Shown: positions 50,138 through 56,848 of the stretch, piece after piece
Layout: each line of letters begins with the position of its first letter
How positions within the stretch are numbered: the stretch's first letter is position 1
Assembly: GCA_009885825.1 (NCBI GenBank)
Contig: VFJY01000030.1
Coordinates: forward strand, 16,120 to 80,119
DNA: 64,000 nt
From: Rhodobiaceae bacterium
Lineage (GTDB): Bacteria > Pseudomonadota > Alphaproteobacteria > Rhizobiales > Aestuariivirgaceae
Direction: 5' to 3'
Notes under the pieces: model-generated
What the model was told of the DNA's origin: nothing
Database searches by the model: none
Seen by the model: the letters and a program-made list of their open reading frames with translations, nothing else
Position numbers and translations under genes: made by a program

Positions 50138-53100
50138 ATGCAGGTCGACCGCAAATATACGAAAACCGGACAAGACGCCTACGCGGACATTGAATTTCGC
50201 CAGGCAACCAGCGAAATCAAGAACCCGGACGGGTCTATTGTTTTCCGTCTGGAGAACATTGAGGTTCCTGCCTCATGGAGCCAGGTCGCGACAGATATTC
50301 TGGCGCAAAAATATTTCCGCAAAGCCGGCGTTCCTGCTGCCTTGAAGCGCGTTGAAGAAAACAGCATCCCCTCGTGGCTGTGGCGCTCGGTGGCGGATGA
50401 AGCTGCCCTGGAAAGCTTTCCAGAAAAGCAGCGCATCATTGGCGAGATGAGTTCCAAGCAAGTGTTCAACCGTTTGGCCGGCACTTGGACCTATTGGGGC
50501 TGGAAGGGCGGCTATTTCAACACCGAAGAAGATGCGCGCGCCTTCTATGACGAATTGTGCTTCATGCTGGCCACACAGAAATGCGCGCCGAATTCGCCGC
50601 AATGGTTCAACACGGGCCTGCATTGGGCTTACGGCATTGATGGACCGGGCCAGGGCCACTTCTATGTGGATCATGAAACCGGCAAGCTCACCAAATCCAA
50701 GTCGTCTTATGAGCATCCGCAGCCCCATGCCTGCTTCATTCAGGGCGTTGCCGATGATCTCGTCAACGAAGGCGGCATCATGGATTTATGGGTGCGGGAA
50801 GCGCGGCTGTTCAAATATGGCTCGGGCACGGGCTCGAACTTCTCTTTCCTGCGTGGTGAAAGCGAAAAACTTTCAGGCGGCGGCAAGTCATCCGGCCTGA
50901 TGAGCTTCCTCAAGATCGGCGACCGCGCAGCGGGCGCCATCAAGTCTGGCGGCACCACGCGCCGCGCCGCCAAGATGGTGGTGGTTGATGTCGATCATCC
51001 GGATATTGAAGAATACGTCGATTGGAAAGTTAAGGAAGAGCAGAAAGTTGCTGCATTGGTGACGGGTTCCAAGATCGTCAAGAAACATCTTGGCCTGATC
51101 ATGAAGGCTTGCGTCAATTGCGAAGGTCCTGGCGATGACTGCTTTGAGATTGAAAAGAATCCAGCCCTCAAGCGCGCGGTGAAAGAAGCGCGCCGCAACA
51201 TGGTGCCGGACAACTACATCAAGCGTGTCGTCCAATTTGCCAAGCAGGGTTACACTGACCTGGAATTTGACGCCTATGACTCGGATTGGGATGGCGAGGC
51301 CTACCGCACGGTGTCCGGCCAGAACTCCAACAACTCGGTTCGCGTCACCGATGAATTCCTGCGCGCCGTTGAAACTGACGGTTCATGGAACCTCAACGCC
51401 CGCATGACCAAGAAAATCACCAAGACGTTGCAAGCGCGCGACCTTTGGGACAAGATTGGCCAGGCAGCCTGGGCGTCCGCCGATCCCGGCATCCAGTATC
51501 ACACCACCATCAATGACTGGCACACCTGCCCGGCATCGGGCGAAATCCGCGCTTCCAACCCCTGCTCGGAATACATGTTCCTCGACGATACGGCGTGCAA
51601 TCTCGCCTCGCTCAATCTTTTGCAGTTCCGCAACAATGAAACGGCGAAATTTGACGTTGAGTCATACGAGCATGCCGTTCGCTTGTGGACCATGGTTCTG
51701 GAAATCAGCGTACTGATGGCGCAGTTCCCGTCCAAGGAAATTGCCAAGCTTTCCTATGAGTATCGCACGCTCGGTTTAGGCTTCGCCAATATCGGCGGAT
51801 TGCTGATGACCAACGGCATTGCCTATGACAGCCACGAGGGCCGCGCGATTTGCGGTGCTTTGTCGGCGATCATGACGGGCGTTTCCTATGCCACGTCCGC
51901 CGAGATGGCGAAGGAGCTTGGCCCCTTCCCCGGATTTGCGAAAAACCGCGACCACATGCTGCGCGTCATGCGCAATCATCGCCGCGCCGCCTATGGCGCT
52001 GCCGTGGGTTACGAGGGCGTTCAGATTGCGCCCGTGCCACTCGATGAAACCGATTGCCCCGAGCATGAACTCATAACGCATGCACGCAAAGCCTGGGATC
52101 TGGCGGTGGAACTCGGCGAGGCCCACGGCTACCGCAACGCGCAGGCGACTGTTGTGGCGCCGACGGGCACCATCGGCCTGGTGATGGATTGCGACACCAC
52201 GGGCATTGAACCGGATTTTGCCTTGGTGAAGTTCAAGAAGCTGGCTGGTGGCGGTTATTTCAAGATCATCAACCAGGCGGTTCCCGAGGCGCTTCGCACG
52301 TTGGGCTATGACGCCACGCAGATTGAGAAGATCATCAATTACGCCGTTGGCCTTGGCACACTGCAGGATTCGCCTGCGCTCAATCACGCGCAACTCCGCG
52401 CCAAGGGTTTTGGCGATGAGCAGATTGAGAAGATTGAATCGGGCCTCGCTTCCGCCTTCGATATCAAGTTCGTGTTCAACAAGTGGACGCTGGGCGAGGA
52501 CTTCTGCCGAAACGTGCTGAAGATCACCGACGAGCAGCTCAACGACTATGGTTTTGATCTTCTCGGCCATGTCGGCTTTTCGAAAGCTGATATCGACAAG
52601 GCCAATGTCCATGTCTGCGGCGCCATGACGCTGGAAGGTGCACCTGGCCTCAGGGATGAACACCTGCCGGTGTTTGATTGCGCCAATGCATGCGGCCGTC
52701 TCGGCAAGCGCTATCTCTCGGTTGAAAGCCATATCCGCATGATGGCGGCAAGCCAGCCGTTTATCTCGGGCGCCATCTCCAAAACCATCAACATGCCGAA
52801 TGAAGCCACCGTTGCGGAATGCAACGCGGCCTACATGCTGTCATGGAAGCTGGGCGTCAAAGCCAACGCGCTTTACCGCGACGGCTCCAAGCTTTCGCAG
52901 CCGCTCTCATCGCAGCTTATCGCTGATGATGCGGACGAAGGCGAGGATGCGGTCGAAAGCCTGATGGCCAAGCCCATGGTCCAGCGCATTGAAACCATTG
53001 TCGAGAAGGTGATCGAAATCGCGAGGGGCCGCGACAAGCTGCCGGGCCGCCGCAAGGGTTACACACAGAAAGCCGTTGTGGGAGGGCACAAGGTCTATCT

Positions 53101-53806
53101 CCGCACTGGCGAATATGACGATGGTAAGCTTGGCGAAATCTTTATCGACATGCACAAGGAGGGGGCGGCGCTGCGTGCCATGATGAACAACTTCGCGATT
53201 TCTGTCTCGGTGGGCCTGCAATATGGCGTGCCACTGGAGGAATATGTGGATGCCTTCACCTTCACCAAGTTCGAGCCAGCCGGCATGGTGCAGGGCAACG
53301 AGTCCATCAAGAACGCCACATCCATTCTGGATTACGTGTTCCGCGAGCTCGCTGTCTCTTACCTCGGCCGCAATGACCTGGCCCATGTTGAGGCCTCGGA
53401 AATGGGCTTTGACGCGCTTGGCAAGGGTGTTGGCACAGACGAGCCAAAAGCCCCGACGTCTGTTCCGGCGCAGAAGTATTTGTCGTCAGGCTTTGTGCGC
53501 AAGCAGAACCTGTCGAACGTGGTGGTGATGCCGCAAGGTGTCACTGCATCAGCGTCCCCTGCTCACGCATTGCAAATGCGCGCGGCGGAATCGGTTTTGG
53601 TTGGCTCGCTTGCCTTGGCGGAATCGTCGGCTGCCTATGTCTATGAGCCAGCGGTGCCTGCCACAACCACCATGGACCAGCGCGCCCAGGCCCGCCTGCA
53701 GGGCTACGAAGGCGACAGCTGTGGCGAATGCGGAAACTTCACGCTGGTGCGCAATGGCACATGCCTCAAGTGCAACTCCTGCGGAAGCACGAGCGGGTGT
53801 TCGTAG
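50138..53806 (+). CDS. nrdJ: Vitamin B12-dependent (class II) ribonucleotide reductase
   Basis: 1222 aa; [46 protein letters not shown]-terminal [27 protein letters not shown]. Confidence 0.97.
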
Positions 53807-53902: not shown

Positions 53903-53999
53903 CCATTCCGGCGAAAGCCGGAATCTGCTTACAGTTTGCAATAGTTTTGAATTGTCACGTTGCCAACAGCTGAAAAATTTCGGCTTCTACCGGAATGAC
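53903..53999. repeat. REP-like palindromic element
   Basis: CATTCCGGC-GAAA-GCCGGAAT hairpin with an outer partner ...TTTCGGCTTCTACCGGAATGACGG. Confidence 0.55.
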
Positions 54000-54565
54000 G
54001 GATCCCCGAATAAGTCCGCCACTGTCCGATCAAGGAGACCAATGAGTGATTGCCGAGGTGCCTGATATTTTCATCAATTCACCATTCAAATTGAATTGGA
54101 CATCGACAGGAACCACCGTGCGCACCATCGTCGAGTCGCTCAAATTTTCATTTCATTTTCAAGATTCGGTCTCGCCGCGCCACTTTTTCAACAATTATTT
54201 TTCCAGCGGGCCGGCGTCGAGGAAATAAATTTGTGGACAAATCCCGCCGCATGGCGCCAAAAAAAGCCATTCTGTCCGTGCACGGAGGAAGCTTGGAATT
54301 ACTGAATTCATGGGGCTGCGTGCGTATTTAACGGTGTCTGTCCGTATACGGACGATATGCCTTGCAGGCTGCTCGTTTACCAGTTGTTAGGAAAGTTTGT
54401 TAGATATACAAGATGTTGACGGCATATTGCCGAATCACACAATCGGGTTCAAAAGACTTGTCAATAACGATGGCGACTACAGAATAAAATGTACGAACGA
54501 TCGTTAGTGTACTAGACTAGCCTGCGTTGTGGGGCACTAACAACAAAACTCTAGGAGAAAATATC

Positions 54566-54640
54566 ATGGCCGCTAAGAAAGCTGCAAAGAAGCCTGCAAA
54601 GAAACCAGCCAAGAAGGCCGCGAAGAAGAAGAAGATCTAG
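54566..54640 (+). CDS. Candidate Lys/Ala/Pro-rich micro-protein (histone H1-tail-like)
   Basis: RBS (TAGGAGAAAATATC) then ATGGCCGCTAAGAAAGCTGCAAAGAAG..., read as MAAKKAAKKPAKKPAKKAAKKKKI*, followed by a strong terminator. Coordinates +/-1 nt (see finding). Confidence 0.5.
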   Translation: MAAKKAAKKPAKKPAKKAAKKKKI

Positions 54641-54668
54641 TTCTTCCTTTGTAAAGTTTCTAGGATTG

Positions 54669-54706
54669 GACCCCGGACGGCACCGCCTCCGGGGTCAATT
54701 CTTTTT
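54669..54706 (+). terminator. Rho-independent terminator
   Basis: GACCCCGGA-cggcaccgcc-TCCGGGGTC then aattcTTTTT. Confidence 0.85.
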
Positions 54707-54770
54707 GGGGGCGCTCACTTCGAACAAAAAAGGCCGCAGATTTGCGGCCTTTCCTCATGTCTGTTGACGC

Positions 54771-55499
54771 TTATTGATAGACGTAAATGCGCGAGCCAAC
54801 CTTCACGCGCTCGAAAAGATCAATTACGTCGGCGTTCATCATGCGGATGCAGCCCGATGACATCGCTTGCCCGATGGAGCGCTCGTCATTGGTGCCATGA
54901 ACGCGGTAAATGGTGCCGCCGATATACATGGCGCGCGCGCCCAATGGATTTCCCGGCCCACCATCCACCATCTCTGGCAAATTACGGCCCTTGGCCGCCT
55001 CGCGCTTGATCATTTCCGGCGGCGGCCGCCAGTCAGGCCATTCCTGCTTGGACACAATGCGGGAATTGCCGCTCCATTGGAAACCCTCGCGGCCAACGCC
55101 AATGGAATAACGCACGGCTTCGCCATCCTCCAGCACATAATAGAGCGCTCTCTCGGGTGTGCGCACAATCAGCGTGCCTGGCGCATAGTTCGCCTCGTCC
55201 CAATCGACAATCCGGCGCCTGGACTTGCGGCTGAGGCCCTTGTCTTTCAGCGATGCGTATTGCGAATTCCCGCCACGGGACTTTCCAAACAGGCATTGCA
55301 TGAAGGTTCCGCAGTCGCGCTTCTTGGCGGCTTTTTGCCCGGCTTTCTTCTTGGCCGCTTCGGTGGCAAGCTCCGCCTTCTTCTTTTTCTTGATCAGAAG
55401 AACTTCTTCCGGCGTCTGCGACACCGCTGAATAGGCAGGCAGCGGCACGATCGCAAAGGACAGCAGCATGAAAATCGCTGCTGTGAGGAGTTTTTTCAT
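54771..55499 (-). CDS. L,D-transpeptidase (YkuD), exported, with Lys-rich linker
   Basis: MKKLLTAAIFMLLSFAIVPLPAYSA signal; KKKKKAELATEAAKKKAGQKAAKKR; YRVHGTNDERSIGQAMSSGCIRMMNADVIDLFERV. Confidence 0.92.
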   Translation of the reverse strand: MKKLLTAAIFMLLSFAIVPLPAYSAVSQTPEEVLLIKKKKKAELATEAAKKKAGQKAAKKRDCGTFMQCLFGKSRGGNSQYASLKDKGLSRKSRRRIVDWDEANYAPGTLIVRTPERALYYVLEDGEAVRYSIGVGREGFQWSGNSRIVSKQEWPDWRPPPEMIKREAAKGRNLPEMVDGGPGNPLGARAMYIGGTIYRVHGTNDERSIGQAMSSGCIRMMNADVIDLFERVKVGSRIYVYQ

Positions 55500-55633
55500 G
55501 GTTATTCTTTCCTTGATTTGGTTGACACAAAAATACCTATTTTTTGACGATTCATCAACAAAATTCGGGGCATTTAGCGTTTGCCTTTGCCTGGGCGCTG
55601 GAACTTGATAGAAACAACCCTTGCAAAGGAGAA

Positions 55634-56848
55634 ATGCCCATGAAAACCGCCTTCCGCGCCATGCTGCTTGTGTTGCTGGCCACATCCGCTTTTACAATTC
55701 CATCAAAAGCGGAGGATTTGCCGCCGGTTGTGGCGGCGCTTTTCGGGAATTTGGAAAAGCAGATCAATGTCAAGCCCACCTACGGGAAGCTTGAGACCGA
55801 TTCGAACGGAAATATCACGATTTCCGACATGGCGGTCAGTTACGCCGCCATGGCTGGCGGACCCCAGATAAATTACACGGTCAAAACGATTTCATTCGAA
55901 AACGTCGAAGCCGAGGCGGACAGCATCATCAAAGTGGGTAAGTCTGTCATGACTGACCTCAAGATGAACATGAATGTGGGCGACGGCCAGAATGTCACCG
56001 TGGAACTCCCGTCAGCCACAGCCGAAGACTGGTTTGTCCCGGTATTGGCTGAAAATCCCACGCCGCTGCAGGAGTTGCGCGCCAATATGAGTATCGCGCG
56101 CAAGGCATCCGCCGGTGAATTCAAATTTTCAACCATGGGACAGACTTTCACGGCCAAAGGCATGGAATTGACCTGGGATGGCGATCCGGTCACGGGGGCT
56201 GGAAAATCTTCTATTACGCTGAAAGACCTTGTTATCCCCGAGGCTGCCATTGCGGCAGGCGATCCCACCGGCCAAATGAAAAAATTGGGCTACGCTGACC
56301 TGACCCTCAATTTCACCGCGGCTGGCGAACTTGCGATCAATGGCGAAACCTTTGGTATAAACGGCAATATTGACGTCAGCGGCAAGGACATGGGCGGATT
56401 CAAATTCGCCTTCGGCGCAAGCGAACTCCCTATCTCAGCCTTGGCCGAGTTGCAGGCCGCCGAGCGCGACAAACGGGAACCCAATATGAATGCGCTCATG
56501 CCGCAATTGATGAACGTGACGATCGGCGACATGCGATTCCGCTTCGAGGATGCGTCCATCACCAGGAAATTGCTTCCAATCTTTGCCAAGATGCAGGGCA
56601 TGGACGAGGCGGCGATGGTGGCCAACGCCAGCGCCATGTTGCAGATCAGCATGATGCAACTCAAGAACCAGGCGTTCACCGATCAGGTGGTGGGCGCGGT
56701 GAGCGCGTTTTTGAAAGACCCGAAGTCGATCACCATCGCGATCAAACCTGCTTCCCCCGTGAAGGTTCAGCAGATGATGACGCTTGATCCGAACAATCCC
56801 GCCGCCGCGATTGACCTGCTGGGCGTTTCAGTGACGGCGAATGATTAA
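55634..56848 (+). CDS. Exported protein of unknown function
   Basis: RBS AAAGGAG before ATG; signal peptide MKTAFRAMLLVLLATSAFTIPSKA; ~400 aa beta-rich sequence. Confidence 0.75.
   Translation: MPMKTAFRAMLLVLLATSAFTIPSKAEDLPPVVAALFGNLEKQINVKPTYGKLETDSNGNITISDMAVSYAAMAGGPQINYTVKTISFENVEAEADSIIKVGKSVMTDLKMNMNVGDGQNVTVELPSATAEDWFVPVLAENPTPLQELRANMSIARKASAGEFKFSTMGQTFTAKGMELTWDGDPVTGAGKSSITLKDLVIPEAAIAAGDPTGQMKKLGYADLTLNFTAAGELAINGETFGINGNIDVSGKDMGGFKFAFGASELPISALAELQAAERDKREPNMNALMPQLMNVTIGDMRFRFEDASITRKLLPIFAKMQGMDEAAMVANASAMLQISMMQLKNQAFTDQVVGAVSAFLKDPKSITIAIKPASPVKVQQMMTLDPNNPAAAIDLLGVSVTAND

Follow-up and report, generated by a model that had tools for sequence, protein, structure and literature searches.

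Organization of the locus

Within the 64,000-nucleotide stretch of DNA analysed here (referred to as the window), a Lys/Ala-rich micro-gene lies between nrdJ, which codes for a B12-dependent ribonucleotide reductase, and a convergent gene coding for an L,D-transpeptidase (YkuD) (Table 1). Exact translation yields an in-frame gene of 75 nt (24 codons and a stop), with its ATG at 54566-54568 and its TAG at 54638-54640; the window reads AATATC-ATG-GCC-GCT-AAG-AAA-...-ATC-TAG from 54560 to 54640. The predicted product, MAAKKAAKKPAKKPAKKAAKKKKI, contains 13 Lys among 24 residues and carries a strongly positive charge. The preliminary description of this DNA had placed the ATG at 54565, one base off, which produced an apparent frameshift and an alternative, frameshifted peptide. 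Exact translation of 54566-54640 rules out a frameshift and shows that alternative to be wrong, while the first reading proposed at the time (24 aa, 13 Lys) was correct. No ORF of at least 18 aa with at least 40% Lys arose in 20 simulated 64-kb sequences (first-order Markov) versus one in the window, which together with conservation across the genus (see below) rules out a chance ORF. Profile searches (Pfam, NCBIfam and Rfam) returned no match above threshold, placing the micro-gene in no named family, and the openly licensed literature that we searched held no description of it or of a comparable free peptide. Ordinary annotation misses the micro-gene.

Table 1. Features of the nrdJ / L,D-transpeptidase locus, in window coordinates.
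Feature	Position	Strand	Basis
nrdJ, B12-dependent ribonucleotide reductase, upstream neighbour	50138-53806	+	NF005736, 2281 bits
Palindrome 1, TCCGTGCACGGA, putative operator	54275-54286		conserved at about -157 from GAATC
Palindrome 2, TCCGTATACGGA, putative operator	54341-54352		conserved at about -91 from GAATC; symmetric changes in relatives
CtrA-like dyad, TTTA-CCAGTTG-TTAG	54376-54390		TTT[ACG]-N7-TTA[AG] 56-57 nt before GAATC in 32/32 orthologs
Putative promoter, TTGACG (54416-54421) and CACAAT (54438-54443)	54416-54443	+	consensus match; lies in the upstream block of highest conservation (83-92% identity)
Near-palindrome CGGCATATTGCCG, part of the conserved block	54420-54432		symmetry not strict in relatives
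GAATC, a GANTC (CcrM-type methylation) site between -35 and -10	54432-54436		present in 32/32 orthologs examined
5'-UTR motif CCTGCGTTGTGGGGCACTAACAA, conserved	54521-54543	+	single copy in genome; same position in relatives
Shine-Dalgarno TAGGAGA, 7 nt 5' of ATG	54552-54558	+	sequence; CTAGGAGA conserved in most orthologs
Micro-gene, 24 aa, stop TAG	54566-54640	+	exact translation; third-position-biased change among genus orthologs
Intrinsic terminator of the micro-gene	54669-54706	+	fold z = -3.1; genus-wide conservation of stem and T-run
Separate terminator of the L,D-transpeptidase gene	54726-54755	-	fold z = -4.2
L,D-transpeptidase (YkuD), convergent neighbour	54771-55685	-	PF03734; synteny in relatives

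The ribosome-binding site and terminator that had been ascribed to the micro-gene were both located. In the terminator, GACCCCGGA (54669-54677) pairs with TCCGGGGTC (54688-54696) in a 9-bp GC stem extended by three inner pairs (GGC/GCC) and followed by AATTCTTTTT, which supplies the T-run; the 72-nt region containing it folds at z = -3.1, so that the GC-rich 9-bp stem noted earlier is real. An automatic terminator scan omitted this element, presumably owing to its bulged stem and to the short spacer before the T-run. The micro-gene is shown to form a solitary unit with its own terminator. The 5'-UTR and the coding sequence folded no better than shuffled versions (z = -0.4 and +0.7, respectively), CCTGCGTTGTGGGGCACTAACAA had no notable predicted structure, and Rfam returned only sub-threshold matches for the region. 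A structured RNA was rejected on these grounds, as there is no extra folding outside the terminator and no Rfam family. Two further observations concern the surroundings: an inverted repeat, ATTCCGGCGAAAGCCGGAAT, lies at 53905-53924 between nrdJ and the micro-gene and resembles a dispersed intergenic repeat, and the L,D-transpeptidase bears a Lys-rich stretch (LIKKKKKAELATEAAKKKAGQKAAKKRDC) after its signal-like N-terminus.

The micro-gene is conserved as a coding sequence

Relatives were located by DNA search and their ORFs were then translated. The micro-gene is kept at the nrdJ / L,D-transpeptidase locus in 33 of 37 genomes of the genus (the window's own and 36 others); wherever the available contig extends far enough, it is flanked by nrdJ and by the transpeptidase gene. 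One of the 33 copies is broken by an assembly gap (L290 in G033) and another has a divergent C-terminus (L291 in G008). The four genomes with no match at the locus (G012, G022, G024 and G035) are represented by fragmented assemblies (330-610 contigs; completeness 74-90%). The ortholog peptides in the genus are intact Lys/Ala/Pro sequences of 22-52 aa whose length changes in AAKK or AAKKP steps, and the corresponding differences in DNA length (-6 to +84 nt) amount to whole codons every time.

A DNA-only alignment was made of 32 orthologs, including two that belong to another genus, and identity to the window was counted at aligned letters. In the 11 codons that follow the ATG, identity at codon positions 1, 2 and 3 was 0.98, 1.00 and 0.62, respectively (P = 2×10−5), and over all codons 0.92, 0.94 and 0.61, while the 60 nt upstream of the micro-gene had no such period in the same alignment. 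Protein-guided alignments gave 63, 66 and 294 differences at positions 1, 2 and 3, a count that is biased by its protein guide and that agrees with the DNA-only one. Since the sequences entering a Fisher test were chosen by protein motif, the coding argument was restricted to the DNA-only alignment. Third-position-biased substitution and whole-codon length change both reveal selection on the peptide, and this alignment shows the micro-gene to be protein-coding and under purifying selection at the protein level. The earlier proposal had been made conditional on the reading frame and on conservation in relatives; the ORF is in frame and conserved across the genus.

Identity in 20-nt blocks follows the proposed architecture of the unit. 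It is about 0.8 across the coding sequence, drops to 0.36 after the stop and returns to 0.77-0.84 over the terminator; on the 5' side it is 0.84 around CGTTGTGGGGC, 0.4 in the middle of the 5'-UTR, 0.83-0.92 at -160 to -120 and 0.2-0.6 farther upstream in the intergenic region.

A putative control region upstream of the micro-gene

The block near -160 contains TTGACG-N16-CACAAT with GAATC inside; of the promoter hexamers, CACAAT is a weak -10 and TTGACG is absent from some relatives. In the genomes having them, among eight tested, this block and the 5'-UTR motif are each single-copy and confined to the micro-gene locus. In Caulobacter, promoters that carry GANTC between -35 and -10 switch on at a fixed stage of the cell cycle, and full CtrA sites read TTAA-N7-TTAA, degenerate sites being accepted as motifs (PMC4287350). 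The dyad upstream of GAATC is such a degenerate site (TTTA...TTAG rather than the consensus TTAA...TTAA) and is situated upstream of position -35 (relative to the putative start), where CtrA sites for activation usually lie. Shuffling the upstream region gave 0.15 matches, at any position, to a slightly looser pattern than TTT[ACG]-N7-TTA[AG], and orthologs with a weaker first half-site (TTTG or TTTC) have TTAA as the second. A gene for GcrA was identified in the window's genome and in G005, G017 and G657, three relatives that have the micro-gene. From the conserved dyad, the GANTC site, the GcrA gene and the promoter rules of Caulobacter, we reasonably infer, rather than observe, that the micro-gene is probably under cell-cycle control.

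Farther upstream stand the two TCCGTnnACGGA palindromes, 66 bp apart; the window contains these two copies and no more, where 0.02 would be expected. Nearly all orthologs have both within two mismatches, L017 having just one, and in several the two arms change symmetrically (e.g., TCAGTATACTGA), which is what a dimeric regulator would impose. Strict GTCCGTnnACGGA sites number about seven in the genome. A wider TCCGTnnACGGA regulon was considered and rejected, as the other sites in three genomes have no common neighbours. The control region is unusually elaborate and several times the size of the micro-gene itself.

Related peptides and tails outside the locus

Scanning the whole GTDB by pattern, with two further scans, for Shine-Dalgarno-preceded MA(x)KKAAKK ORFs produced matches in many phyla among those listed. 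The matches include long H1-like proteins (Xanthomonadaceae and Burkholderiales) as well as free peptides of about 15-60 aa (Alphaproteobacteria, Acidobacteria, Planctomycetes and Actinobacteria, among others). Many of the tiny alphaproteobacterial matches listed stand after nrdJ. At the loci measured, the micro-gene lies about 550-760 bp after nrdJ in the window's genus and in a second genus of its family, while Reyranella, Vineibacter and Caenispirillum (L077, L062 and L031) share a Lys/Ala peptide of 18-22 aa preceded by a Shine-Dalgarno directly after nrdJ, at about 100-120 nt, too near to fit the long control region. The Caenispirillum locus holds two tandem Lys/Ala micro-ORFs of 20 and at least 50 aa, the second of which leaves the contig. 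Since the pattern scans ignored nrdJ, adjacency to this gene in three lineages is unlikely to be due to chance; in sequence of such low complexity, common origin and convergence of the nrdJ-linked micro-ORFs are indistinguishable.

Linkage to nrdJ as a general alphaproteobacterial rule was ruled out by a sample of 140 nrdJ loci from the order and the class, drawn without reference to the peptide. Only two, both from the window's genus, have the micro-gene and 138 have none, six of the latter extending less than 700 nt downstream; when basic micro-ORFs were sought with relaxed criteria, no further same-strand candidate appeared downstream. Among other Alphaproteobacteria, unlinked Lys/Ala micro-ORFs occur in f127, G249, G265 and G037; the genes beside such ORFs are housekeeping genes with no relation to one another (hemF and poly(A) polymerase, gatB, lipoyl ligase). 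In the f127 family, the gene between hemF and the poly(A) polymerase gene codes for 31-36 aa rich in Lys, Ala and Val (L296-L298) and has a conserved upstream block of its own (GCAAGATTTAGTGGTTAA).

Similar stretches are also found on larger proteins, named here by sequence resemblance and without a profile search. Serine hydroxymethyltransferase has an N-terminal Lys/Ala-rich tail in 9/9 genomes tested from the window's genus and in one genome from the second micro-gene-bearing genus; the enzyme of the window's genome starts MAKKAVKKSTKKN... (G000:C73:83046-84356; set L326-L335). The tail is absent from G061 (a third genus of the family, in which no micro-gene was detected), from G046 and G055 (two other families) and from G037 (another family, with an unlinked micro-ORF). 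A common role, or a common mutational origin, may underlie the free peptide and the tails. Such tails were also seen on a Gfa-like enzyme (L306, in G027), where the tail is N-terminal and made of Lys/Ala, and on a CoxG-like protein of the window's genome (L002, G000:C220), which has a KPAK tail at its C-terminus.

Comparison with known Lys-rich proteins

Hc2 (HctB, PF07382) of Chlamydia and BpH1 of Bordetella consist of Lys-rich pentamer-like repeats with Ala, Pro, Val and Thr, and their length varies by repeat units with the frame kept, Hc2 doing so by Lys-rich pentamers (PMC2848022). The micro-gene orthologs likewise carry tandem Lys-rich repeats of 4-5 residues and change length by repeat units, but span 22-52 aa in the genus instead of 165-237 aa. 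The window peptide gave no match to Pfam HC2 (PF07382), and the 47-aa ortholog, the best of those tested, scored 19 bits (E = 0.0017) against a cut-off of 40 bits; because this cut-off was missed, we do not class the micro-gene as a member of Hc2. The AlgP/PhaF proteins of Pseudomonas have a C-terminal KPAA-repeat domain, and peptides made of these Lys/Pro/Ala repeats bind DNA (PMC9239181). KPAA-type repeats are visible by inspection in the micro-gene peptide (KKPAKKPAKKAAKK), but the tail is attached to another domain in AlgP/PhaF, whereas here it is the whole product, a 24-aa ORF in all, with no separate N-terminal domain in the profile search. The H1-like proteins of Xanthomonadaceae and Burkholderiales (e.g., L034, L052 and L054) begin with the same MA-KK-AA-KK after a Shine-Dalgarno but are about 100-200 aa long and do not adjoin nrdJ. 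Low-complexity sequence of this kind cannot prove descent from Hc2 or AlgP. The label "histone-tail-like" given earlier stands for the composition of the peptide, which has Lys/Ala/Pro repeats of the Hc2/AlgP type (PMC2848022, PMC9239181). AlphaFold2 modelled a 52-aa ortholog as only helices (pLDDT 84), a single-sequence model of such a peptide being weak evidence.

Discussion

We infer expression of the micro-gene, nucleic-acid binding by its product and the identity of its regulators. The best mechanism that we can offer, in which we place about even confidence, is that the product is a non-specific nucleic-acid-binding polycation resembling Hc2, BpH1 or the tail of AlgP without a domain, since composition, repeat period and length behaviour match (PMC2848022, PMC9239181). 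The single-gene unit would encode a domain-less polycation working like the Lys/Ala/Pro tails of these proteins. Such a peptide would bind nucleic acid without sequence specificity, most likely DNA and possibly RNA, and would help to compact or organise it once bound; its length would be an evolvable property, altered by whole repeat units. CtrA could act through the TTTA-N7-TTAG dyad, CcrM and GcrA through GANTC between -35 and -10, and a dimeric regulator at the two TCCGTnnACGGA operators.

The main rival is a translated polycation with a non-DNA polyanion as its target, such as RNA or ribosomes, polyphosphate or an acidic protein partner, the peptide serving as a counter-ion or forming condensates. 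We consider this unlikely, though worth keeping in view: the argument from composition applies to it equally, the tail of serine hydroxymethyltransferase indicates that such stretches are not limited to DNA-binding proteins, and AlgP associates with polyphosphate granules (PMC9239181). However, no evidence prefers any one of these targets over DNA, and the cell-cycle-like control region better suits a role at the chromosome. It is improbable that RNA is the main product, either as a regulatory small RNA with an incidental short ORF or as a dual-function RNA. A compact unit with a promoter-like block, a terminator and a conserved non-coding 5'-UTR motif would fit an RNA, but the substitution pattern and whole-codon length changes point to selection on the peptide, and both the shuffling comparison and the Rfam search described above speak against a folded RNA.

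A cationic membrane-active peptide or toxin appears very improbable. Although the product is cationic and predicted to be helical, with a charge like that of antimicrobial peptides, its sequence offers no hydrophobic face apart from Ala and lacks a signal or transmembrane segment, no paired antitoxin gene was seen, and vertical retention beside nrdJ across the genus is not mobile-like. Hardly any weight remains for a leader peptide attenuating a downstream gene, an idea prompted by a short ORF with a terminator close behind: the gene that follows is transcribed convergently and ends in a terminator of its own, leaving no same-strand gene to attenuate, and the length is free to vary between 22 and 52 codons. 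Gene order in the window and in relatives rules out this reading.

Returning to the nucleic-acid-binding polycation, a bolder and rather doubtful extension is a cell-cycle-gated "micro-histone", a tiny free histone-tail-like chromosome peptide timed by GANTC methylation/GcrA and CtrA, which would act as a tunable, length-variable DNA counter-ion encoded beside the gene of a dNTP-making enzyme. Genes of 18-50 codons evade most annotation, and low-complexity filters conceal them from homology searches; here, selection on the peptide was demonstrated from DNA alone, and the combination of a Shine-Dalgarno, Lys/Ala codons and period-3 conservation provides a recipe for finding more. Should the product prove to be a free histone-tail peptide whose expression follows the cell cycle, it would offer a minimal system for testing how far charge alone, with no folded domain, can organise a bacterial chromosome. 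If the "micro-histone" proposal is true, similar unannotated Lys/Ala peptides of 18-50 aa would constitute a widespread, overlooked layer of nucleoid biology.
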